From: Aurantimonas endophytica
GTDB taxonomy: Bacteria; Pseudomonadota; Alphaproteobacteria; Rhizobiales; Rhizobiaceae
Direction of reading: 5' to 3'
Assembly: GCF_014196845.1 (NCBI RefSeq)
Contig: NZ_JACIEM010000001.1
Coordinates: forward strand, 1-64,000
Length of the DNA: 64,000 nt
The stretch's first letter is position 1; each line of letters starts with the position of its first letter. A program made the position numbers and the translations under genes. The notes beneath the pieces were generated by a model. That model was not told the origin of the DNA, ran no database searches, and saw only the letters and a list, made by a program, of their open reading frames with translations. Of the stretch, positions 1-30,218 are shown piece by piece.

Positions 1-251
1 GCTTCTAGCTGTGCGCGATAGTCCTTCCACCAAGCATCCTCGATCTCGTCCACCATGATTTCGATGACGATGATGCGGTCCTTCTGGATCGCGGCGTCCT
101 GCTTCCACAGCCCGTCAGCTGGTGCACGAGTGAAGGCGGTCGCGCCGCCGAACCGGACCGCAAGACCGTCAATAATCTCTTCGATGATCTCTGGCTCGAT
201 CGGCCTGCCGCGGCCGGTATCGAGCGGCAAGAACACCTCGACAATCTGCAT
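1..251 (-). CDS. Small conserved phage-associated protein, C-terminus cut off by window edge
   Basis: The frame opens at an ATG at 251 and runs off the left edge without a stop, giving at least 83 residues starting MQIVEVFLPLDTG. The leader on the coding strand has GAAGGAA a few bases before the ATG, a good ribosome-binding site. The protein is acidic with no membrane segment. It lies opposite to the plus-strand head genes, like the small reversed genes at 2.8-4.2 kb. I recognise no domain and assign no function. Confidence 0.6.
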   Translation of the reverse strand, partial: MQIVEVFLPLDTGRGRPIEPEIIEEIIDGLAVRFGGATAFTRAPADGLWKQDAAIQKDRIIVIEIMVDEIEDAWWKDYRAQLE

Positions 252-319
252 AGGCTGTTTCCTTCGGGGGGCGGCTTTTTCATGCCCGCAGTGCGGGCTT
301 CTCACCATAGGAGCGGCCA

Positions 320-1102
320 GTGGCCCTGAAAGCAATCCTCGACAGCCTCGATGGCGTCGATCCGCAGTTCCATGACCTCTACGAAGAGAAGGACGGCAAG
401 TTCGTTCTCGTCATCGAAGGGATCGAGCAGCACCCCGGAGCACAGTCGCTGAAGTCTGCCCTTGACCGCGTCCGCGGCGAGAAGCGCACGCTCAGCGACA
501 AGCTGACGACCGCTGAAAGCCGTCTGGAGGGCCTGCCGGACGATTTCGACGCCGACGCCTACGAACATCTGCGCCAGCAGGCGGAAGGCAAGGAACCGGC
601 CAATCTGGACGAGCGGTTGACGGCGCAGAAGACGCAGCTCGAGGCGAAGTTCGCCAAGGAGCGCGAGAAGCTGGAAGGCCGAGCGACGAAGCTGGACGGC
701 GCACTTCGCCGCGTCATGGTCGATGACGGCCTGACGAAGGCTCTCCTGGACGCCGGCATCGACAAGACATTCCTTCCGGCGGCGAAGGCGCTCCTCAAGG
801 AGAAGGGCCAGATCAAGCTCATCGAGGATGACGATGCGATCGAGGTCTTCGCCGACGACGGCGTGAATGACCGCACCCCGCTCTCCGACTACGTCCGCTC
901 GTGGGCCGGTCAGGACGAAGGCAAGCCCTTCATCGCCAAGGCCACAGGCGGCGACGCAAAAGGCGGGCAGGGCCGCTCCTTTGGCGAGAACCCGTTCGAC
1001 CCGAAGAACCCGAACCGGACGAAGCAGCAGGAGCTGATCGTCGCGAACGACGCCAAGGCCCGCCAGATGGCCGAGGCCGTGGGCATCAAGCCCTACTGGT
1101 AA
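320..1102 (+). CDS. Phage scaffold-like protein (coiled coil, upstream of coat protein)
   Basis: A 260-residue protein starting at GTG, with AGGAG about 7 bases upstream. Residues 40-130 are rich in charged heptads (KSALDRVRGEKRTL, then long K/E/A stretches), typical of coiled-coil capsid scaffold proteins. The C-terminus is polar and ends KPYW. Its place directly before the coat gene is the usual place of a scaffold, which binds inside the procapsid and leaves before DNA packaging. No protease motif is visible. The assignment rests on composition and position, so it is moderate. Confidence 0.7.
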   Translation: MALKAILDSLDGVDPQFHDLYEEKDGKFVLVIEGIEQHPGAQSLKSALDRVRGEKRTLSDKLTTAESRLEGLPDDFDADAYEHLRQQAEGKEPANLDERLTAQKTQLEAKFAKEREKLEGRATKLDGALRRVMVDDGLTKALLDAGIDKTFLPAAKALLKEKGQIKLIEDDDAIEVFADDGVNDRTPLSDYVRSWAGQDEGKPFIAKATGGDAKGGQGRSFGENPFDPKNPNRTKQQELIVANDAKARQMAEAVGIKPYW

Positions 1103-16751: not shown

Positions 16752-18566
16752 ATGGCGGTGCAACCCCTCTACGCGACCGGAACCGCAACGGTCACCAGCG
16801 GCAGTGCGACCGTCACCGGCACGGGAACCGCGTGGACGATCGGCGTCGTCAACGGCGGGATCTTCTCGCGGAACGGGTTCAGCATTCCGATCGCGTCGAT
16901 CGAGAGCAACACCTCGCTGACGCTGGCCTATCCCTGGCCTTCGGGCACATCGACCGGCGCGTATGCAATCTCGCTGGGGAACTCAGGCGCCGCCTCCGCG
17001 ATCACCGCGAATGCCAGGCTGGCCGAGCTGGTCGCGCAACTGTCGGAAGTGAGCCCGTTCGTCAGGACGCTGTTTGACGACGCGGATGCGGAGGCGGTCA
17101 GGGCGTCGCTGGAGGTCCCTGACACGACGGCGGCGGTTATCAGGAGAGAATACGCGACGGTTGCTGCTGCCAAGGACGCTACTATTCCGGCCGGTATCGT
17201 CTATGTCACAATCCCAGGCCAAGCGACTTATGAGCGTGTCACGGAACCGGCGCTCGGTGCTGAACTCATCACGAACGGCGACTTCTCGGTAGGGACCGGT
17301 TGGCTGCTGATCGGCACCAATCCACCGACGATCTCGTCGGGAAGAATGAATTTTCCCGGTCCTGCTGCCGGGACATCTCGTCAGAGCGCACTCGCCGTCG
17401 TTAGCCAGCAGTATCGGCTCTCGTACACCGTCCTCAATCGGACGGCGGGAACGGCAACCTTTGTCCTTGACGACCTCACTGCGACGAACCGGTACTCTGA
17501 GCCGGCAAGGTCCACCAACGGGACATTCGTCGCATATCCAAATCTCACCTCGCTTATGACGAACCTGACGATCTTTGGCACGAACTTCGTCGGAGCCATT
17601 GATGACATCAGCCTTCGTCCGATCCTCGCCGGGCAGTTCCGGTCCGCAGATGGCCAGTGGTGGGCACAGGCGGCGGCGTCTGTCGCCTACACCCCGCAGT
17701 TCCCGACCGCTGGCGAACAGGCGCAGGCGCGCTCGAACATCGGAGCGACGGCCACGGGCTCCGCGCTATTCACCGCAGCGAGCGCTGCAGTGGCGCGCAC
17801 GACGCTCGGAATCGGCCTGCCCGTTGGGTGGCTCTTCGGGCTGGCCATGGCGAACAATGCGCCGAGCCCGGCGCGGTGGATCGACATAGCTGCTGGCTCG
17901 GCGCGTGACGAAGCCGACAGCGCGGATCTGCGGCTCTCGCCCGGGACAAGCAAGAACCTCGGTGCGGTCTGGGCAGCGGGCGCTGCCGGCGGCCTCGATG
18001 TCGGGCCCATCGCCAACAACACCTGGTATCACCTGTTCCTGATCGGAAACCCGACAACGGGGGCGGTCGACGCGATCTTCTCGACATCGCTTACGAACCC
18101 GGCATTGCCGTCCGGCTGGACGAAGAAGCGCAGGATTGGGGCGGTTCTCACGGACGGCTCTGCCAACATTCGCCGGTTCACTCAGAACGGGGACCATTTC
18201 CAGTTCGCCGTGCCGGCAAGCAATAACAGTGCAGCAGTCGCCGCTCAGACCCGCGTGTTGCGCGATCTGAACGTCCCGCCCGGGCTGAAGATCATGGCTG
18301 AGGTCACAGCGATATGGTCAACCACTGTCACGACAAACGGCGGCCTCTCGATCGTCGATCCGGTGATCGCGACCGGACCCGGTCCCGGCTCCGCAACCCA
18401 GGCAATCTATCGGTACAACAGCGCAGCGCAGTCCTTCGGCATCGCCACCCTGTGGGTCACAACGGACACCGAGCGGCGGGTCGCGGCCTACGACGACGCG
18501 GGCCTGCAGCTGCTGGCATTGAACACCCGCGGCTACCTGGATCGGCGGGGACGCGACGTTGCGTAG
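16752..18566 (+). CDS. Phage tail fibre / tailspike-like protein
   Basis: A 604-residue protein. Residues 1-90 (VQPLYATGTATVTSGSATVT, then GTSTGAYAISLGNSG) form a Thr/Gly-rich virion-binding N-domain common in tail fibres. Residues about 165-290 look like a carbohydrate-binding beta-sandwich (LITNGDFSVGTGWLLIG). A collar segment ARSNIGATATGSALFTAASA precedes a C-terminal receptor-binding part. The gene ends overlapping the SGNH esterase start, so the two products are probably made together. Confidence 0.75.
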   Translation: MAVQPLYATGTATVTSGSATVTGTGTAWTIGVVNGGIFSRNGFSIPIASIESNTSLTLAYPWPSGTSTGAYAISLGNSGAASAITANARLAELVAQLSEVSPFVRTLFDDADAEAVRASLEVPDTTAAVIRREYATVAAAKDATIPAGIVYVTIPGQATYERVTEPALGAELITNGDFSVGTGWLLIGTNPPTISSGRMNFPGPAAGTSRQSALAVVSQQYRLSYTVLNRTAGTATFVLDDLTATNRYSEPARSTNGTFVAYPNLTSLMTNLTIFGTNFVGAIDDISLRPILAGQFRSADGQWWAQAAASVAYTPQFPTAGEQAQARSNIGATATGSALFTAASAAVARTTLGIGLPVGWLFGLAMANNAPSPARWIDIAAGSARDEADSADLRLSPGTSKNLGAVWAAGAAGGLDVGPIANNTWYHLFLIGNPTTGAVDAIFSTSLTNPALPSGWTKKRRIGAVLTDGSANIRRFTQNGDHFQFAVPASNNSAAVAAQTRVLRDLNVPPGLKIMAEVTAIWSTTVTTNGGLSIVDPVIATGPGPGSATQAIYRYNSAAQSFGIATLWVTTDTERRVAAYDDAGLQLLALNTRGYLDRRGRDVA

Positions 18567-19149
18567 GATCACGATCGCCACGATGGGCACCAGCCTGACG
18601 GCTGGCAATTACGAGAACCGTTTCTGGCAGCCGCAGCTCGCGGCCCTGCTTGAGACGAAGACCTCTCACCCGATCACGGTTCGCAACTTCGGCATCGGGG
18701 GAGGGACATCGGCCAACGGCCTTGCAAGCATCGGCAGCTTTCTGCCGGCGCGTCCGGAGATCCTGACTATCGAATATTCGATGAACGACTCCGGTGGGTC
18801 CTTGACCCTTGCGCAGAGCCGGGCGAACGCGATCTCGATCATCAACCAGTTCCGGGCGCAGGACCCGGACATCATGATCTACATGCTGGTCATGACGCCT
18901 ATCGTGCCGGGGACAGGCGGCTTCATCGCTCGGCCCAACCTGGTCTGGTACTACGACGTCTATCGGCAGATGGCAGCAGACCCGTCTCTCAATGTCGGGC
19001 TGATCGACAACTATCTGGACTGGCCGCAGCCTCCGACGACGGGGCTGCTGCCAGACGGGCTTCACCCTCTCATCGCGGACATGAACCAGCGCCTGGTGCC
19101 GAGGATTGCGACCGTCCTGGCGCCGGCGATCACGGCGCGCTTCGGCTGA
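18559..19149 (+). CDS. Phage SGNH/GDSL-type esterase
   Basis: A 196-residue hydrolase starting at a TTG inside the fibre gene. All SGNH blocks are present: Ser12 in GTSLT (block I), the glycine of FGIGGGTS at about 45-51 (block II), Asn76 in YSMNDSG (block III), and Asp166/His169 in DGLHP (block V). The length is normal for a single-domain enzyme. There is no signal peptide. Coupling to the fibre gene suggests a virion enzyme that removes acyl groups from host surface polysaccharide during attachment. Substrate is inferred only. Confidence 0.85.
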   Translation: MRRITIATMGTSLTAGNYENRFWQPQLAALLETKTSHPITVRNFGIGGGTSANGLASIGSFLPARPEILTIEYSMNDSGGSLTLAQSRANAISIINQFRAQDPDIMIYMLVMTPIVPGTGGFIARPNLVWYYDVYRQMAADPSLNVGLIDNYLDWPQPPTTGLLPDGLHPLIADMNQRLVPRIATVLAPAITARFG

Positions 19150-19326
19150 TCACCGGATAGCCGTCATCCAATCGGCGTCGATCTGCTGCTCGGGGGTGAG
19201 GGCGCGCGTCTCCCAGACACCTGTCTCTGGGTGGTAGCGCCCCTCGCAGAACTCGGTGCCGCGGTGAGACGGGTGCCACTCGGTGAGCCCGTTGAGGCGA
19301 AGCCAGAACAGTCGCAAACGCTTCAT
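19150..19326 (-). CDS. 58-residue protein, reverse strand
   Basis: Starts MKRLRLFWLRLNGLTEWHPS, with AGGAGG 6 bases before the ATG, an excellent ribosome-binding site. The end reads LTPEQQIDADWMTAIR. The stop abuts the stop of the convergent esterase gene without a gap. It contains several Trp and His residues but no known motif. It belongs to the reverse cassette with the methyltransferase and acyltransferase. Confidence 0.6.
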   Translation of the reverse strand: MKRLRLFWLRLNGLTEWHPSHRGTEFCEGRYHPETGVWETRALTPEQQIDADWMTAIR

Positions 19327-19404
19327 TCGATCCTCCTGAGTTTCCCGCCGCCCGTTCTGGACACCTGAGTTGCCTGCCTACTCCGCTAGCGCATAAACGC
19401 CAAG

Positions 19405-19602
19405 CTAATGCACCCTGACCAGCTTGATACCGCGCTTACCCAGTTCCGCCATTATCGCAGCAGCTTGAAGGCGCCCGATCATTTCGGGCGTCCACCGCTC
19501 TTTGTCGGATGGCGGCACGACCGCGAGCCAGTGCTCCCATTCGGCGGCGATGGCCTTCGCGGCAATCTCGATTGCCTCGTGGAACGTGTCTCTGTCGGTC
19601 AT
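19405..19602 (-). CDS. 65-residue protein coupled to the methyltransferase
   Basis: Starts MTDRDTFHEAIEIAAKAIAA at an ATG that overlaps the methyltransferase stop (ATGA), so translation is probably coupled. Helical and amphipathic, with KERWTPEMIGRLQAAAIMAE and a basic end GKRGIKLVRVH. No recognised family. Confidence 0.6.
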   Translation of the reverse strand: MTDRDTFHEAIEIAAKAIAAEWEHWLAVVPPSDKERWTPEMIGRLQAAAIMAELGKRGIKLVRVH

Positions 19603-20471
19603 AGCTCCGAGTTCCACCAGCACTGCACGCCGTCGACCCGGATATCCGGTTTGCCACTATCTACCGCGATTATGGCGGGGCGCTCCATCTCAATCTTCCA
19701 CCCTGCGTCAAGGAAGGTGCTCATGATCCGCCCTTCAATCTGCCTCGAGTGGGTGCCGATGACGACGCGTCGAACAAGGCGTTTCATATCGCAGAGGTTC
19801 TCCTGGACGTAATCCGCCTCTCCGCCTTGGATATCGATGTGAAGCAGATCCAGCGGCTGGTTTCCCGCGATGTCCGCGAGAGGAATCATATCCAAGACGT
19901 GATGCGTCTTGTTCTCTAGTGCCGCATCGATCTGGTTCTGGCTGGCGCCCAACACGGGTTCAAGTCCCCATGATTGGCCTGACACTTCCGCGATCGGGAA
20001 AAGTGCCTTCCCCTTCGAGGCCGCAGCAATTCCGTGAATGATCCTGTATTCCGTCTGGCTGAAGCCATTGGCCCGACGGGCTTCCTCTGCAAACTCCACA
20101 TGACCCAAGTCGCCCTCAACGCCAATGAGCTCGATGCTCTTTCCGCGGCTTCTTGCTGCCGCCCCGGCGTTGTTCAGCCAACAGCCCCAGCCACAGCCAA
20201 GCTCGGCCATGCGAAAGGTGCTGCCGGCATGGTCTACCGCATGAAGAACCGAGCCCCACTCGGCAATGTCAGCGTGCCAGTTGGCTGGGATCGGGACCGG
20301 TTCGACCACGCCCGCCTTTCCGTCGAGGATACCCGGGAAGAAGCGCGGCGAGACCTTCACGCCGAGGAAGTTTGTGACGTGCTGCGGGTCGGGGGGCGCG
20401 GTCACTGCGTAGGCATGCATTAACGCGACGGCGTCGAAGCTGGAATTGTAGTGCCAGAATGGGCTCTGCAT
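19599..20471 (-). CDS. FkbM-type SAM-dependent methyltransferase
   Basis: A 290-residue protein starting at the ATG at 20,471, chosen because GGGAGG lies 6 bases upstream; a frame-extending ATG at 20,576 has no ribosome-binding site and lies next to a hairpin. Motif I of the SAM site is MAELGCGWGCWLN, and later LDLLHIDIQGGEADYVQ and RRVVIGTHSRQIEG match the FkbM family. Such enzymes O-methylate sugars of surface glycans or nodulation factors. Context with an acyltransferase and a phage esterase suggests modification of the host surface. Confidence 0.8.
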   Translation of the reverse strand: MQSPFWHYNSSFDAVALMHAYAVTAPPDPQHVTNFLGVKVSPRFFPGILDGKAGVVEPVPIPANWHADIAEWGSVLHAVDHAGSTFRMAELGCGWGCWLNNAGAAARSRGKSIELIGVEGDLGHVEFAEEARRANGFSQTEYRIIHGIAAASKGKALFPIAEVSGQSWGLEPVLGASQNQIDAALENKTHHVLDMIPLADIAGNQPLDLLHIDIQGGEADYVQENLCDMKRLVRRVVIGTHSRQIEGRIMSTFLDAGWKIEMERPAIIAVDSGKPDIRVDGVQCWWNSEL

Positions 20472-20585
20472 CAGTGGCCTCCCGATTTCGTCACCCATAC
20501 CACGAAGCCCGTCCCGGTCCATCCGCGGCGGGCTTCCCGGCGCCGGGGACAGCGCTGCAAAAGTCACCGAGATCATCGTGCCACC

Positions 20586-20600
20586 GCACTGCCACAGTGC
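20586..20600 (-). promoter_or_regulatory. Small hairpin between acyltransferase and methyltransferase genes
   Basis: GCACTG and CAGTGC pair around CCA. It lies in the leader of the methyltransferase, about 115 bases before the chosen start. No T-run. Possible operator or RNA structure. Confidence 0.3.
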
Positions 20601-20687
20601 AATCTTCCTAGGTAGGATCGAGGCCGAGGTGGATCGGTTCTTCGTCGATCGCAGCAGCCTCGTGGAGGAAATGTCCGTCTCCAGTGC

Positions 20688-21836
20688 TCACGCGATCACT
20701 GGCTTTTGCAGCGCTGGGATCTCAGGGTCCAACAGGTAAGGAACCCGTTTCCGAAGGAACGCTTTCTCAATCAACTCATATGAGACGGCGCTGACCAACA
20801 GGGTTACGGGGTAGTGGAACGTCAGCAGGGTCAGGCCCATCTGCCGGATAGGCACTTCCGAAAACTGAAAGCCGACATACTCCCCATAGAGGTAGTTGCA
20901 CATTGGGACGGTCAGGAAATGCAGCATGTAGGTGCTGTAAGAGATTGCGCCGATATATCCCAACGCCCTTGAGATTGGTCCGAACAGGCGCTGAGCCAGC
21001 AACGTGTATGATCCGACAACACAGGCCCAGAGGGCGGCAGTGACGGTCGGAAGGTAAACCCAAACCCCACCCTGATCGGGCGCATCTCCGTAAAATCCGC
21101 CGTGAATGTTAAGCCAGTGGTATACACCCACGAGGCTTGTACCCGCCGCCACGAGAACGACGACCGAGACTGCCCGTACGGACCTTTCGTGCCTGTGCCG
21201 GTGGGTGTTGAACACGTGGCCTGCCAATATGCCTGCGATGAACGCGTCAGCCTGCCCGAGGATGGTCCAGTACGCGATCGCCCGGACTTCACCTTTATCG
21301 ATGAAGAAGATGTAGCGGAGCATCAGAAATAGGCCGCAGAACAACGCGCACCGTAGGACGGTCTTGGTAGCGCTACTTCCCTCCAGTGTGTTCCTGAGAA
21401 AAGGATAGGCGAGGTAGAACTGGAACTCTACCGCCAGAGTCCATGTGCCGTAGACGGTTCCTCCGCCAAGCAATCCGAAAAACAGGAACAGTGATGTGTT
21501 CGTGCTTCCTATCGCGTGGACAGCGTAGAGCGTCATAAGGAAGATTAGCGGAAAGAGGCGGAGGACTCTGTTTTTCAGGAACGGCAGGAAATCGATCTGT
21601 TTCCCGGCAGTGAGAACAGTGAAGACGAAACCGGTGATCGTTATGAAGAGGGTTACGCCGCTCCACCCTTCCTCGAACAGGCTACCGACCCAAGTGCTTG
21701 GAACGGTATCAAATGGAATGTCGCGCACAAACGGAACGTCGCGCACATGAATTCCATGCCAGAAGAATACGAGGAAGGCGGCGAGCGCACGGAGATGGTC
21801 TAGGCCAATTATGTACGTTCCCTGCTTTGGCTTCAC
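20688..21836 (-). CDS. Membrane acyltransferase, OafA-like (acyltransferase family 3)
   Basis: A 382-residue protein with about ten hydrophobic segments. LDHLRALAAFLVFFWHGIHV (residues 12-31) is the first helix with the conserved Arg and His. KNRVLRLFPLIF and WTLAVEFQFYLAYPF are further family motifs. The family moves acetyl or other acyl groups to sugars of LPS O-antigen, capsule or Nod factors. It starts at GTG. Base composition is visibly richer in A/T than the phage genes, a sign of separate acquisition. As a phage cargo gene it may change the host receptor. Confidence 0.85.
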   Translation of the reverse strand: MKPKQGTYIIGLDHLRALAAFLVFFWHGIHVRDVPFVRDIPFDTVPSTWVGSLFEEGWSGVTLFITITGFVFTVLTAGKQIDFLPFLKNRVLRLFPLIFLMTLYAVHAIGSTNTSLFLFFGLLGGGTVYGTWTLAVEFQFYLAYPFLRNTLEGSSATKTVLRCALFCGLFLMLRYIFFIDKGEVRAIAYWTILGQADAFIAGILAGHVFNTHRHRHERSVRAVSVVVLVAAGTSLVGVYHWLNIHGGFYGDAPDQGGVWVYLPTVTAALWACVVGSYTLLAQRLFGPISRALGYIGAISYSTYMLHFLTVPMCNYLYGEYVGFQFSEVPIRQMGLTLLTFHYPVTLLVSAVSYELIEKAFLRKRVPYLLDPEIPALQKPVIA

Positions 21837-21939
21837 CGCCCCATTCCTCTCAGAAATATTCGGGCCGACTTAGCTTAGGGATGCAACTGTGTCCATCGGT
21901 TGAATAGCATCCTGCCGACTGCCCAGACTAAAAGCCAAT

Positions 21940-21974
21940 GCCCGCCCCGGTCCTGCCGCGGCGGGCTTTTCTTT
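21940..21974 (+). terminator. Rho-independent terminator before the lysis genes
   Basis: GCCCGCC at 21,940-21,946 pairs with GGCGGGC at 21,960-21,966 and is followed by TTTTCTTT. It points along the plus strand although the nearest upstream genes are on the minus strand, so it probably closed the tail operon before the reverse cassette came in between. Confidence 0.75.
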
Positions 21975-21994: not shown

Positions 21995-22834
21995 ATGCGC
22001 CTGACGCTTCAGCACCTGTCGGCGATTGCCGGCGGGACGATGACGGCTGACCGTCGTTCGAACATGCAGTCGATCCTCGCTGGCCTGGCGGCTATGGGTG
22101 TTCAGGTTGGGCTCGACCGGCCGCAGCGCCTGTCGCAGTACCTGCCGCAGCTCGCCCACGAGAGCGGCCGCTTCCGCTACGATGTCCGCGAGGATCTCGG
22201 GAACACGCCGGCGCGCGACGGCGACGGCAAGCTCTACATGGGCCGATCCGGCATCCAAGTGACGGGTGGCGACAACTATCGCGGCTTCCGGGACTGGTGC
22301 TGGGCAGCCGGGCTGCCGGCGCCGGATTTCGAGCGGGAGCCGGACAAGGTCAATACCGACCCTTGGGAGGGCCTTGCGCCGATCTGGTACTGGTCGACGC
22401 GCAACCTCAACCGCTACGCGGACGAGGGCAACATCGAGATGGTGACGCGCCGGATCAACGGCGGCACCAACGGCTATGCTGACCGGCTCGTCATGTACGA
22501 GCGGACCGCGCTGGTCCTGCTCGGCCGCAAGCTCGAGGCGGGAGCCGTCCGGCGGTTCCAGGAAGAGCACGGGCTGATCCCCGATGACATCGCCGGGCCA
22601 CAGACGCGCGGCGCCATGCACGACGCGCTCGGCAAGCTGCCGGTGTTCGTGTTCGGCGATGCGCCGGCGCTGCCTGCGCCGCCGATCGTCGTGCCGGAGA
22701 AGCCGATGCCGGCGCCGGTGGTTGTCCCGCCGACGGTACCGACGCCGGCGCCGGGCGCGCCGCTCACCGCCATCCAGTACCTGACCATCATCGAGGCCGC
22801 GACCGCGGATCTCCGCAAGCACTACGGAGCCTGA
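21995..22834 (+). CDS. Endolysin: GH19-type lysozyme with peptidoglycan-binding region
   Basis: A 279-residue protein with AGGAG 8 bases before the ATG. Residues 1-175 are the glycoside hydrolase 19 (chitinase-like) lysozyme domain: YLPQLAHESGRFRYDVREDL contains the catalytic Glu, and KLYMGRSGIQVTGGDNYRGF is the conserved second block. VRRFQEEHGLIPDDIAGPQT is a peptidoglycan-binding helix set. A Pro/Ala/Val linker (about 220-255) leads to a short helical end. No signal peptide, so it needs a holin. It degrades the host wall at lysis. Confidence 0.85.
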   Translation: MRLTLQHLSAIAGGTMTADRRSNMQSILAGLAAMGVQVGLDRPQRLSQYLPQLAHESGRFRYDVREDLGNTPARDGDGKLYMGRSGIQVTGGDNYRGFRDWCWAAGLPAPDFEREPDKVNTDPWEGLAPIWYWSTRNLNRYADEGNIEMVTRRINGGTNGYADRLVMYERTALVLLGRKLEAGAVRRFQEEHGLIPDDIAGPQTRGAMHDALGKLPVFVFGDAPALPAPPIVVPEKPMPAPVVVPPTVPTPAPGAPLTAIQYLTIIEAATADLRKHYGA

Positions 22835-24849: not shown

Positions 24850-25644
24850 TCAAGCTCCAGCATCTTCGAGAGAGGCTTTTCCCCCCGGTTGACTCCAGAT
24901 GTGGTCGTCCCCGTGAAGGTAGAAGTGACTGAAGTCGGCCTCGGCGCAGAGACCTTGCCAATCGTGAACCGTGAGCAGGTTTTGGCGAAGGGTGATCAGT
25001 TCCCGTCGACGCAGATCTTGCAGAGCTCGATTCACATAAACGACCGTTAGGCCCGTCGCGTCGACCAGTTCCTCTTGCGTCAGCGGGAAGATGCAGGTCG
25101 CGGTGTCTGCGAAGTCGAGGTTCCGGCTGCACGCGAAGATCTCGCACAACAGGTGGGCGACCCTCTGGTAGCCGGTGCGGCGCCCGACATTCATCACCCA
25201 CTCCCGCGCAATCGATGCATCGGCGAGGCTTCTGGCGAGGAAGGCTCGGGATATTACCGGACGTCTATCCATCAGGGCGAGCACCTCATCCCTGCGTGCT
25301 ACGGCGACGGCGCAGTCCGTCACGGTCTCGATGGAGTGGTCCGGGTCGTCGAAGAAGAGCGAGGAGAGGTCGCAGATGTGGCCGGGCATGAGGATGCCGA
25401 CGATCTGCCTGTTTCCTTGCCTGTTCGCCTTGTGGCGGATGGCCACACCGCTCTGAAGGATCCTCACCAGGTCGGAACGGTCGCCCTCTCGCCGCAGGAA
25501 GGCATGCTTTCCGACAACTATCGTCTGGGAAAAGACGTCGAATAGCGCATCCAGATCATCATCCGGGATTGGCAGCGCCAGCCGGAGCGGACCGCGAGAA
25601 AGGTTCGACACCAAGATACCTCCGAGCCAGTGTGAGGCGATCAT
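24850..25644 (-). CDS. Crp/Fnr-type transcription regulator (A)
   Basis: A 264-residue protein if it starts at 25,644 (MIASHWLGGILVSN); the frame stays open to 25,779. The N-terminal half (about 30-150) is a cyclic-nucleotide-binding-type beta barrel (VGKHAFLRREGDRSDLVRIL, then GHICDLSSLFFDDPDHSIET). The C-terminal half is a winged helix with LTQEELVDATGLTVVYVNRA as the recognition region. The cAMP-contacting Glu-Leu...Arg-Ser/Thr pattern and the Fnr cysteines are missing, so the signal is unknown. Divergent to a second Crp-type gene. Confidence 0.85.
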   Translation of the reverse strand: MIASHWLGGILVSNLSRGPLRLALPIPDDDLDALFDVFSQTIVVGKHAFLRREGDRSDLVRILQSGVAIRHKANRQGNRQIVGILMPGHICDLSSLFFDDPDHSIETVTDCAVAVARRDEVLALMDRRPVISRAFLARSLADASIAREWVMNVGRRTGYQRVAHLLCEIFACSRNLDFADTATCIFPLTQEELVDATGLTVVYVNRALQDLRRRELITLRQNLLTVHDWQGLCAEADFSHFYLHGDDHIWSQPGGKASLEDAGA

Positions 25645-25822
25645 CAAAGCTCTAAGCCACCGAAATGAAATACCTATGCGGGGAAGCGTCCGGTAGCGAA
25701 CATTTACGCGGTGGCAGTTGTAACGCGGGATCGTTGCGCTTAGTTTCGCTTCATCGCGTGCAGGTTTGACCGGGCGCACGCGGCCGCGAACTCGTCATGT
25801 TCCCGCCCCAGTTGGAGGCGGC
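25645..25822. promoter_or_regulatory. Divergent promoter region between two Crp/Fnr-type genes
   Basis: The 178 bases must hold start signals for both regulators. GGAGG at 25,814-25,818 serves the rightward gene. I searched for FNR-like (TTGAT-ATCAA) and CRP-like palindromes and saw none that convinces. Confidence 0.4.
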
Positions 25823-26551
25823 ATGATGCTCGATCTCACTTTCGAAAATTGCCAGAACACGCTGCTCCGCTCTTTGCCGGAGGAGGACTTCCGTATGATT
25901 GCGGAGCACCTGGAAAGGGTGGAGTTCGCGCAGCGCGATGTCCTTTTCCGGCCGAACGAGCCTGTCGAGTATATCGTGTTTCCCGAGAGCGGCATCTTCT
26001 CGCTCGTGATACATCCATCCGATGAGCGAGGCATCGAGGCGGGGCTGTTCGGCCGAGACGGGATGAGCGACGGCTGGATCGGGGCCGGAATCGACAGCGT
26101 GCCGCTGGAGTGCTTTGTCCAGGTGGCGGGAACCGGCCTTAGAATGAAGTCGAGCGATCTCGGCAGACTAGCGGAGGAGAGGCCGGCGGTATGCCGGATG
26201 ATGTTCCGCTGGGTTCACATGCTCGGACTCCAGACGGCGCAGACGGTCCTCGCCAACGGCAGTTACAACGTCGAAGAGCGCCTCGCCCGCTGGCTGCTGA
26301 TGTGCCAGGACCGCCTTGGTCGTAACGATATCCATCTGACGCACGACTTCCTGAGCGTGATGCTCGCCGTGCGAAGATCGAGCGTCACCCTCGCGATCCA
26401 TTTGCTCGAAGGGTCGCGGCTGATCTCGGCCAAGCGCGGCAACATCACGATCCTCGACCGGGAGGCGCTGATAGGGATCGCCCACGGATGCTACGGACCG
26501 GCGGAGGCGGAATATGAGCGCTACATCGGCCTCTTGCGTCACGACGCCTGA
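25823..26551 (+). CDS. Crp/Fnr-type transcription regulator (B)
   Basis: A 242-residue protein with GGAGG 4 bases before the first of two adjacent ATGs. The barrel domain (RSLPEEDFRMIAEHLERVEF, then PVEYIVFPESGIFSLVI) and a helix-turn-helix (HDFLSVMLAVRRSSVTLAIH) are clear. It belongs to a Crp branch frequent in rhizobia without cAMP-binding residues or Fe-S cysteines. It is not a close copy of the divergent regulator A, which has a different recognition helix. Confidence 0.85.
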   Translation: MMLDLTFENCQNTLLRSLPEEDFRMIAEHLERVEFAQRDVLFRPNEPVEYIVFPESGIFSLVIHPSDERGIEAGLFGRDGMSDGWIGAGIDSVPLECFVQVAGTGLRMKSSDLGRLAEERPAVCRMMFRWVHMLGLQTAQTVLANGSYNVEERLARWLLMCQDRLGRNDIHLTHDFLSVMLAVRRSSVTLAIHLLEGSRLISAKRGNITILDREALIGIAHGCYGPAEAEYERYIGLLRHDA

Positions 26552-29189: not shown

Positions 29190-30218
29190 GTGAACATTCC
29201 CGTCCGCATTGGCATGGATACCTCCAAGTCGGTGTTCCAGCTCCACGGAGTTGACGAGAACGAGGTCGTGGTTGTCCGCCGGCAGTTCCGGCGCGCCGAG
29301 ATGATCCGCTTCTTCGAGCGGCTTCCACCTGTTCTTGTTGCCATCGAGTCCTGCGGCAGCTCGCATCACTGGGCGCGGCTGCTGCAATCCTTCGGTCACG
29401 AGGTGAAGCTGATCCCGCCGCAGTACGTGAAGCCCTATGTGAAGCGTGGCAAGAACGATGCGGCCGACGCCGAGGCCCTGTGCGAAGCGGTGACTCGGCC
29501 AAGCATGCGGTTCGTGCCCGTGAAGTCGAAAGAGCGGCAGGCCGCCTGCATGCTTATGACCGTGCGGGAGCGCCTGGTCGGCGTGAAGTCGCAGCTCTCG
29601 AATGCTTTCAGGAGCTATGCGGCAGTGTTCGGCATTATCGGTCCCGCCGGAAGACAGAACGTCAACGCGCTCATCAAGCGCGTGCTCGAGGATGACACCT
29701 TGCCAGAGATGGCGCGGGATCTCTTTCGCTTCCAGGCCCGGGAGTACGCCACGGTCGAGACGCACCTCAAGGAGATTGAGGCCAAGCTGATGAAGTGGCA
29801 CCGTGAGGATGACGTCAGCAGGCGGATCGCAACGATACCCGGCGTCGGGCTCATTGGATCGAGCATGCTGAGCATGAAGGCTCCGCCGGCTGAGACGTTC
29901 AGGTCCGGTCGCGACTTCGCCGCTTGGTTGGGGCTAACGCCCAAGGATCATTCGACAGGCGGCCGCCAGCGACACGGAGGCATTACGAAGGCTGGGGATT
30001 CAGCGCTCCGCTCAACGCTGATTGTCGGTGCGACAGCCGTGCTGAGGCACATCCGCAAGGGACGCCATAAGCCTTCGCCATGGCTCGCCGCCCTGCTGGA
30101 GCGAAAGCCACCGAAACTGGTAGCGGTAGCGCTGGCCAAGAAGTTCGCCCGCATCGCTTGGCGACTGATGGTCTCGGGCGGCGTGTACAACCGGCCAGAA
30201 GCCGCCATGCCTACCTGA
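29190..30218 (+). CDS. IS110/IS1111-type transposase (DEDD recombinase)
   Basis: A 342-residue protein starting at GTG with AGGAG 7 bases upstream. The RuvC-like DEDD residues are in GMDTSKSVFQLHG (Asp), VLVAIESCGSSHHWAR (Glu), and GKNDAADAEALCEAV (two Asp). The C-terminal part has IPGVGLIGSSMLSMK, then WLGLTPKDHSTGGRQRHGGI and the conserved serine in TKAGDSALRS. All appear intact and full length. It moves the element with a guide RNA from its non-coding end. HSTGG style places it with the IS1111 group. Confidence 0.9.
   Translation: MNIPVRIGMDTSKSVFQLHGVDENEVVVVRRQFRRAEMIRFFERLPPVLVAIESCGSSHHWARLLQSFGHEVKLIPPQYVKPYVKRGKNDAADAEALCEAVTRPSMRFVPVKSKERQAACMLMTVRERLVGVKSQLSNAFRSYAAVFGIIGPAGRQNVNALIKRVLEDDTLPEMARDLFRFQAREYATVETHLKEIEAKLMKWHREDDVSRRIATIPGVGLIGSSMLSMKAPPAETFRSGRDFAAWLGLTPKDHSTGGRQRHGGITKAGDSALRSTLIVGATAVLRHIRKGRHKPSPWLAALLERKPPKLVAVALAKKFARIAWRLMVSGGVYNRPEAAMPT

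Follow-up and report, generated by a model that had tools for sequence, protein, structure and literature searches.

We analysed a 64,000-nucleotide (nt) stretch of Aurantimonas endophytica DNA (contig NZ_JACIEM010000001.1, positions 1–64,000; hereafter the window), which carries late genes of a prophage together with genes for putative surface-glycan enzymes. Here the tail fibre gene is followed by an SGNH/GDSL hydrolase gene on the plus strand, then by genes for an FkbM-like methyltransferase and an acyltransferase-3 (AT3) membrane protein, both on the minus strand, and then by an endolysin gene; the cassette spans positions 18559–21836 (Table 1). The first-pass annotation, made from the letters alone, had described these open reading frames (ORFs) and their arrangement exactly as we find them, and its prophage label was right, with phage genes from head to fibre running through the start of the window. 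Since two of the three genes score above curated cut-offs and other phages offer partial parallels, the arrangement is not a chance reading.

Table 1. Features between the tail fibre and the endolysin (window coordinates; aa, amino acids)
Feature	Position	Strand	Evidence
Tail fibre, 604 aa	16752..18566	+	PHROG tail fibre matches; alignment with the L112 and L115 fibres
SGNH/GDSL hydrolase, 196 aa	18559..19149	+	Pfam PF13472 8.4e-19; catalytic residues
Small ORF, 58 aa, may be the final gene in the reverse block	19150..19326	-	ORF only
Small ORF, 72 aa, overlaps the methyltransferase end	19405..19623	-	ORF only
FkbM-like class I methyltransferase, 325-aa ORF	19599..20576	-	Pfam FkbM 0.009 (below cut-off); model; fold matches
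AT3 membrane protein, 382 aa, AT3-only	20688..21836	-	PF01757 2.1e-27; PHROG O-acetyltransferase 3.2e-32; motifs
Terminator-like stem-loop and T run, between AT3 and endolysin	21940..21970	+	7-bp GC stem by eye
Endolysin, chitinase-like, weak peptidoglycan-binding match	21995..22834	+	PHROG 14712 1.4e-80

The tail fibre matches PHROG profiles within about residues 3–96 only, and an alignment with the fibres of two related loci (L112 and L115) showed a conserved short N-terminal part and a variable remainder. The SGNH gene starts with a TTG codon inside the last 8 nt of the fibre gene (TTGCGTAG), preceded by a G-rich stretch, and is likely translated by coupling to the fibre. Its own frame is closed by a stop at 18520, 39 nt upstream of the start, and SGNH is therefore a separate gene; at the sequence level, a programmed frameshift joining fibre and esterase was rejected on this ground and because the gene has its own start with the G-rich stretch. 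The protein scored 69.2 bits against Pfam GDSL_2 (cut-off 32.9), and its SGNH blocks are complete, namely Ser12 (block I), Gly47–49 (II), Asn76 (III), and Asp166 and His169 (V, DxxH). The catalytic Ser12, Asn76, Asp166 and His169, and translational coupling to the fibre gene, had all been named in the first-pass annotation. As the catalytic block begins at residue 10, there is no room for a signal peptide. A sequence search of the PDB returned distant matches to TesA-type esterases (best 1e-5), and a single-sequence structure model, with a mean predicted local distance difference test (pLDDT) score of 52, was too poor for a fold search.

The AT3 protein scored 96.5 bits against Pfam PF01757 (cut-off 31). 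It contains R16-X10-H27 and R90-V-L-R93, which match the AT3 motifs R/K-X10-H and RXXR, defined for the first membrane helix and the loop between helices 2 and 3, respectively (PMC7448272). Eleven hydrophobic segments were found, some of them overlapping, and the placement of the motifs in helices is by sequence only. PF01757 spans residues 10–353 of 382, with no further Pfam match and no C-terminal SGNH domain; the earlier label of OafA-like was thus loose, and the predicted architecture is nearer to Oac of phage Sf6 than to OafA. No relative was found in phage records (tblastn, expect value (E) 1e-5), no match in the PDB by sequence at E 1, and viral-contig scans with AT3 and with the endolysin returned only the IMG/VR copy of the same DNA. 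The SGNH protein could in principle be the periplasmic transfer partner of AT3 rather than a tail enzyme, in the manner of the SGNH domain of OafA/OafB or of PatB, given that AT3 and SGNH domains cooperate in OafA/OafB (PMC7448272). The two genes lie on opposite strands here, the SGNH gene overlaps the fibre gene, and its product begins at the catalytic block without a signal peptide; moreover, the AT3-only Oac acetylates O-antigen (PMC9558356). We give this explanation the least credence of all those considered.

The methyltransferase reached 16.6 bits (E 0.009) against Pfam FkbM (PF05050), under the cut-off of 22.7, and its relative in viral contig L011 likewise fell short (17.0 bits). From an alignment of 64 sequences that includes the protein itself, AlphaFold2 gave a model with a mean pLDDT of 90.9 and with residues 1–32 under 50, which suggests that the true start is probably internal. 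With this model, Foldseek retrieved class I methyltransferases from the PDB (best E 1.6e-7), non-FkbM members ranking first, while the best viral match in BFVD was an FkbM protein (E 3.5e-10; template-modelling score 0.53 by query length), followed lower by several more FkbM proteins. The name FkbM-type had been proposed earlier; the protein misses the Pfam cut-off and has a class I fold with FkbM as its best viral match. A sequence search of the PDB gave no match at E 1.

To place the interval among related phages, we used endolysin relatives, found in 27 of 394 genomes of the family (E 1e-20) and in 12 of 397 genomes of the order (E 1e-35; one common to the family list), own genome included in both. 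The loci fetched numbered 28 and 12, respectively, G158 being left out of the 29 endolysin places other than the window's own; genes were called with a simple custom script. The survey comprised L105–L120 and L134 (n = 17), and L121–L132 and L135–L145 were gene-called only. Glycan-modifying genes lay between tail genes and endolysin in 5 of the 17 surveyed loci. Specifically, two methyltransferase domains were found in L106, one of them FkbM (2.1e-12). In L108, a gene resembling polysialyltransferases (2.8e-16) is accompanied by a GT2 match that stays below cut-off, and in L110 a GT29 gene (2.3e-11) is accompanied by what looks by eye like a methyltransferase. SGNH domains occur in the tail fibres of L111, where the score is just below cut-off, and of L114 (3.4e-15). 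L111 additionally carries a Capsule_synth gene (3.5e-38) and a gene with a below-cut-off match to hexapeptide transferases, and L114 a further SGNH gene in reverse orientation (1.1e-11). In the Sinorhizobium phages phiLM21, first found via the methyltransferase query, and phi3LM21, an FkbM gene lies between tail fibre and chitinase, and the phi3LM21 enzyme also resembles the Vibrio cholerae RfbT family, below threshold (2.9e-5). Among viral contigs found with the methyltransferase query, L011 carries adjacent methyltransferase and AT3 genes opposite to the late genes, L100 a methyltransferase ending early, and L094 a methyltransferase on the far side of the endolysin. Of the five named phages compared, the remaining three, phi2LM21, HMSP1-Susan and RHph_N3_2, have no FkbM gene in the interval by annotation. 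Thus, the interval between tail fibre and endolysin is a recurring site for glycan-modifying genes in some related phages.

Other genes in these intervals deserve mention. The reverse SGNH gene of L114 (11865–12590) encodes an N-terminus that looks like a signal peptide by eye; its product is possibly a periplasmic esterase made in the lysogen, which would bring about conversion by de-acylation. Proteins of L114 (12878–13771) and L100 (9112–9966) look by eye like mutually similar alpha/beta-hydrolases with a GxSxGG-type motif, and neither gave a Pfam match. In L116 (4955–6622), a nucleoside-hydrolase domain is joined to a concanavalin-like lectin domain.

Pfam scans of the interval (junction) proteins and of control proteins skipped 14 of 145 (hub, tape-measure and other large proteins) and 14 of 162, respectively; the tallies list the first 25 of 62 junction families and the first 25 of 82 control families, the latter 25 without a glycan family. 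Ten larger proteins from the glycan-negative loci L107, L113, L116, L117, L120 and L134 were scanned singly and gave no glycan transferase, and the remaining proteins of such loci are covered by the junction tally. A Fisher test of AT3, SGNH and methyltransferase profile hits (8 of 145 junction proteins versus 1 of 162 other genes in 22 loci, p = 0.015) was rejected as evidence because the window was among the loci and its own proteins had seeded the profiles; it was further biased by L002, L094, L095 and L100, which had been found with the methyltransferase as query.

The first-pass annotation had proposed searching related prophages for co-occurrence of the genes. No other locus examined has the full trio, and pairs recur once each. 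The methyltransferase and AT3 are shared by the window and L011, and a tail SGNH with a separate acyltransferase-like gene by the window and L111, where both Pfam matches are below cut-off. In the window, phiLM21 and L011, the glycan genes oppose the late genes, as part of them do in L110, L111 and L114. Such a patchwork could also arise if esterase, methyltransferase and AT3 are independent morons that arrived separately at a permissive site, target different glycans or positions and do not work as a unit. Quite different genes occupy the same site in related phages. In L011, the methyltransferase and AT3 genes come in the opposite order, and BLASTP finds hardly any similarity between its AT3 protein and that of the window. 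Additionally, guanine-plus-cytosine (GC) content is unequal across the three genes (SGNH 62.8%, methyltransferase 60.6%, AT3 55.4%), the AT3 gene being the most AT-rich among the eight genes measured; the lower values of AT3 and methyltransferase compared with the head–tail region (64.9%) fit acquisition by the phage. Against separate arrival, all three genes point to surface glycans, and the methyltransferase and AT3 pair occurs in another phage in the same orientation against the late genes. We consider independent arrival unlikely, while keeping it as a serious contender.

The glycan concerned was approached through chromosomal relatives. In a sample of 151 genomes, AT3 has six relatives beyond its own, all of which were fetched. 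Three of the six (32–34% identical) directly adjoin an ABC-2 permease (ABC2_membrane), a Wzt_C ATPase and a group-1 glycosyltransferase, that is, Wzm/Wzt genes; these three come from two genera, two of them from one genus. For the methyltransferase, the best 80 of 146 genome relatives were taken, and 130 neighbours from 76 of these loci were scanned. Among the 25 of 126 families listed, the neighbours include 19 group-1 glycosyltransferases, 13 proteins with a general methyltransferase domain, 6 GDP-mannose dehydratases and 3 sulfotransferases. The flanks of the 80 loci contain no relative of the phage structural proteins used as queries, with an SGNH hit in L039; on this basis, the family seems to be largely chromosomal, and phages appear to have acquired their copies. 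The host genome itself has one Wzt_C gene. Its Wzm/Wzt operon (L152 8587–15754) is preceded by two GDP-mannose dehydratase/epimerase-type genes and carries two FkbM genes and a large glycosyltransferase after Wzt. The first of these FkbM genes overlaps the end of Wzt, and its product shares 46% identity with the prophage enzyme across 59 aa (E 2e-9); the paired FkbM genes resemble a chain-capping arrangement. The surface-glycan role assigned earlier to AT3 and the methyltransferase is therefore supported by the genomic context of their relatives, which points to O-polysaccharide as the probable substrate.

The methyltransferase might instead act on a protein, a lipid or a small molecule, a reading that the FK506 comparison made for phi3LM21 could prompt. 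Polyketide methylation requires FkbM homologues (PMC5537653), the Pfam match is below cut-off, and among the top PDB fold matches are many enzymes whose substrates are RNA, proteins or small molecules. The chromosomal relatives of the methyltransferase adjoin glycosyltransferases and GDP-sugar enzymes, however, and in the host genome Wzt is followed by a distant homologue, which makes a non-glycan substrate very unlikely in our view.

The surrounding prophage genes run in the order scaffold, major head protein, neck, tail tube, tape measure, distal tail, hub and fibre. The head protein is about 39% identical to the SPP1 coat protein, the nearest tail hub is that of Sinorhizobium phage HMSP1-Susan (38% over 77%), and the nearest endolysin is the phiLM21 chitinase (52% over 76% of its length). 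The contig, 1.58 Mb long and opening with the window, begins inside the prophage, at the scaffold gene (window 1–1102), so that packaging (terminase), integrase and repressor genes are outside view and the intactness of the prophage cannot be judged. A further alternative is a decaying prophage remnant with a silent cassette; the start of the contig within the prophage would fit this, as would the two Terminase_6N matches in the genome, which both sit on another contig (the only terminase family searched). The interval genes are open and full-length with catalytic motifs kept, and the break falls at the contig end and may be an assembly break. A silent remnant is, in our judgement, highly improbable.

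Taking these data together, we lean towards the explanation that the locus is the receptor end of a temperate siphophage, in which a de-acylating receptor-binding module stands next to a cassette for lysogenic conversion, comparable to what is known from Sf6 or from Klebsiella prophages. The SGNH esterase would be made with the late genes, probably on or with the tail, and would remove ester-linked acyl groups from the host surface polysaccharide, presumably O-polysaccharide, at adsorption. The reverse pair, AT3 and then methyltransferase, would form a moron block expressed in the lysogen, in which AT3 O-acylates and the FkbM-like enzyme O-methylates the host O-polysaccharide, probably that exported by the host Wzm/Wzt transporter. 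The altered glycan would change the phage sensitivity of the lysogen. The first-pass annotation had the virion de-acylate its receptor and the lysogen re-decorate it against rivals or returning progeny, an interpretation that is partly supported. If the virion esterase removes the very group added in the lysogen, decoration alone would not block re-adsorption of the same phage; then either the decoration blocks rivals, or esterase and AT3 act at different positions.

Several observations weigh against this explanation. Among the loci examined, the trio of SGNH, methyltransferase and AT3 occurs in the window only. No glycan gene was detected in the interval of 12 of the 17 surveyed loci (L119 lacks upstream sequence), and L112 and L115, the two of L105–L145 in which a profile of the window tail fibre scored, carry none of the three genes in their intervals. 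The glycan genes run in the same direction as the late genes in L106, L108, L100 and phi3LM21, and separate expression in the lysogen is therefore not suggested for these. The window esterase is unfused, whereas SGNH is fused to the fibre in L111 (31.5 bits, cut-off 32.9) and L114 (57.4 bits). It has no relative in 50,697 phage records (tblastn, E 1e-5), and a pattern-limited SGNH scan of viral contigs returned only the IMG/VR copy of the same DNA. Host chromosomes often encode SGNH proteins: this genome has 6 such places, and 70 of 151 genomes gave matches. The window gene thus gives no lead to its substrate. The other three AT3 relatives (two of them in one genome and 38–39% identical) adjoin no polysaccharide genes by eye. 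Finally, only the late part of the prophage is visible.

A more elaborate variant, which we regard as speculative and rather unlikely, is that of a private lock and key. The group set by AT3, together with the methyltransferase, on the Wzm/Wzt-exported O-polysaccharide of the lysogen would shut out rivals, while the virion, with its matching esterase, would still enter lysogens or escape acylated debris. The methyltransferase may additionally act at the chain end like Wzm/Wzt capping enzymes and change O-polysaccharide length. Receptor-binding and receptor-altering genes would then move jointly through the interval as a site of exchange.

Several features of the window complete the description of the locus. 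The two small reverse ORFs gave no Pfam match and may belong to the same transcript as the methyltransferase, and a consensus scan for promoters, confined to the sigma-70-like type, found none. The endolysin ORF as listed begins at 21938; the stem-loop inside this listed ORF, together with an AGGAG preceding the ATG at 21995, suggests a start at 21995 and a terminator between AT3 and endolysin. The terminator scan placed a shorter stem at 21952–21965, and its hit count in the window was 2 versus a shuffle mean of 2.8, i.e. no excess. Right past the late end of the prophage lie two Crp/Fnr-type regulator genes (24850–26551; FnrL- and FixK-like, far under the NCBIfam cut-offs), and at 29190–30218 an RNA-guided transposase of the IS110 family (2.4e-92).

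Shigella phage Sf6 is a podophage of an enteric host and is not known to carry a methyltransferase. Like the window phage as proposed here, Sf6 is temperate and combines a tail enzyme for the receptor glycan, a tailspike endorhamnosidase, with an AT3-only acyltransferase, Oac. The Sf6 tail enzyme cuts the chain, whereas the window esterase is predicted to remove acyl groups. Because acetylation by Oac impedes that tail enzyme, the lysogen becomes immune to infection by further Sf6 (PMC9558356). In Klebsiella prophages, SGNH is among the commonest tail-protein domains, with two esterases shown active, and also occurs in fibre-adjacent proteins; predicted acetyltransferases are present in 5–30% of prophages per K-locus, and a competition between acetylation and deacetylation has been proposed (PMC13123978). 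That work concerns capsule, unlike the O-polysaccharide suggested here, and the available part of the paper describes no linked methyltransferase and AT3 block. In E. coli phage G7C, the SGNH tail protein gp63.1 removes O-acetyl from lipopolysaccharide (as told in PMC13123978). There SGNH is within the tail protein, whereas the window has no fusion of this type, the SGNH being a separate ORF outside the fibre polypeptide.

Closer to the present host, phiLM21 and phi3LM21 share with the window a related endolysin and the position of an FkbM gene; neither has an SGNH or AT3 gene annotated there, and the phi3LM21 enzyme is in late orientation. The FkbM genes of both were treated as auxiliary genes with seemingly unrelated proteins, and FK506 biosynthesis was cited (PMC5537653). 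A paper on phiLM21-like prophages tabulates one FkbM gene, and a word search of its main text gave no 'surface', 'moron', 'acyltransferase' or 'glycosyltransferase' (PMC12429752). Additionally, in the Wzm/Wzt system of E. coli O8/O9a, capping by WbdD, which includes methylation, governs both chain length and export, with chain termination tied to the latter (PMC3482155). Like WbdD, the methyltransferase is proposed to act on O-polysaccharide of a Wzm/Wzt system; WbdD is a host enzyme, and the likeness to it is by description, not by sequence.

A tail enzyme and a converting enzyme in one phage are already known from Sf6, and acetylation versus deacetylation has been discussed for Klebsiella. 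In titles and abstract openings of the literature, few of them from subscription papers, the tail–endolysin site is nowhere described as an exchange site for glycan genes in rhizobial phages. What the analysis adds is the recurrence of the site and a connection with Wzm/Wzt O-polysaccharide. The finding raises the question of whether the tail esterase and the converting acyltransferase of one phage act on the same bond, and the interval between tail fibre and endolysin offers a simple place to look for such genes. In rhizobia, O-polysaccharide also matters for the interaction with plants. If the explanation is true, lysogenic conversion of surface polysaccharide, best known in enteric bacteria, would extend to phages of rhizobia and their kin.

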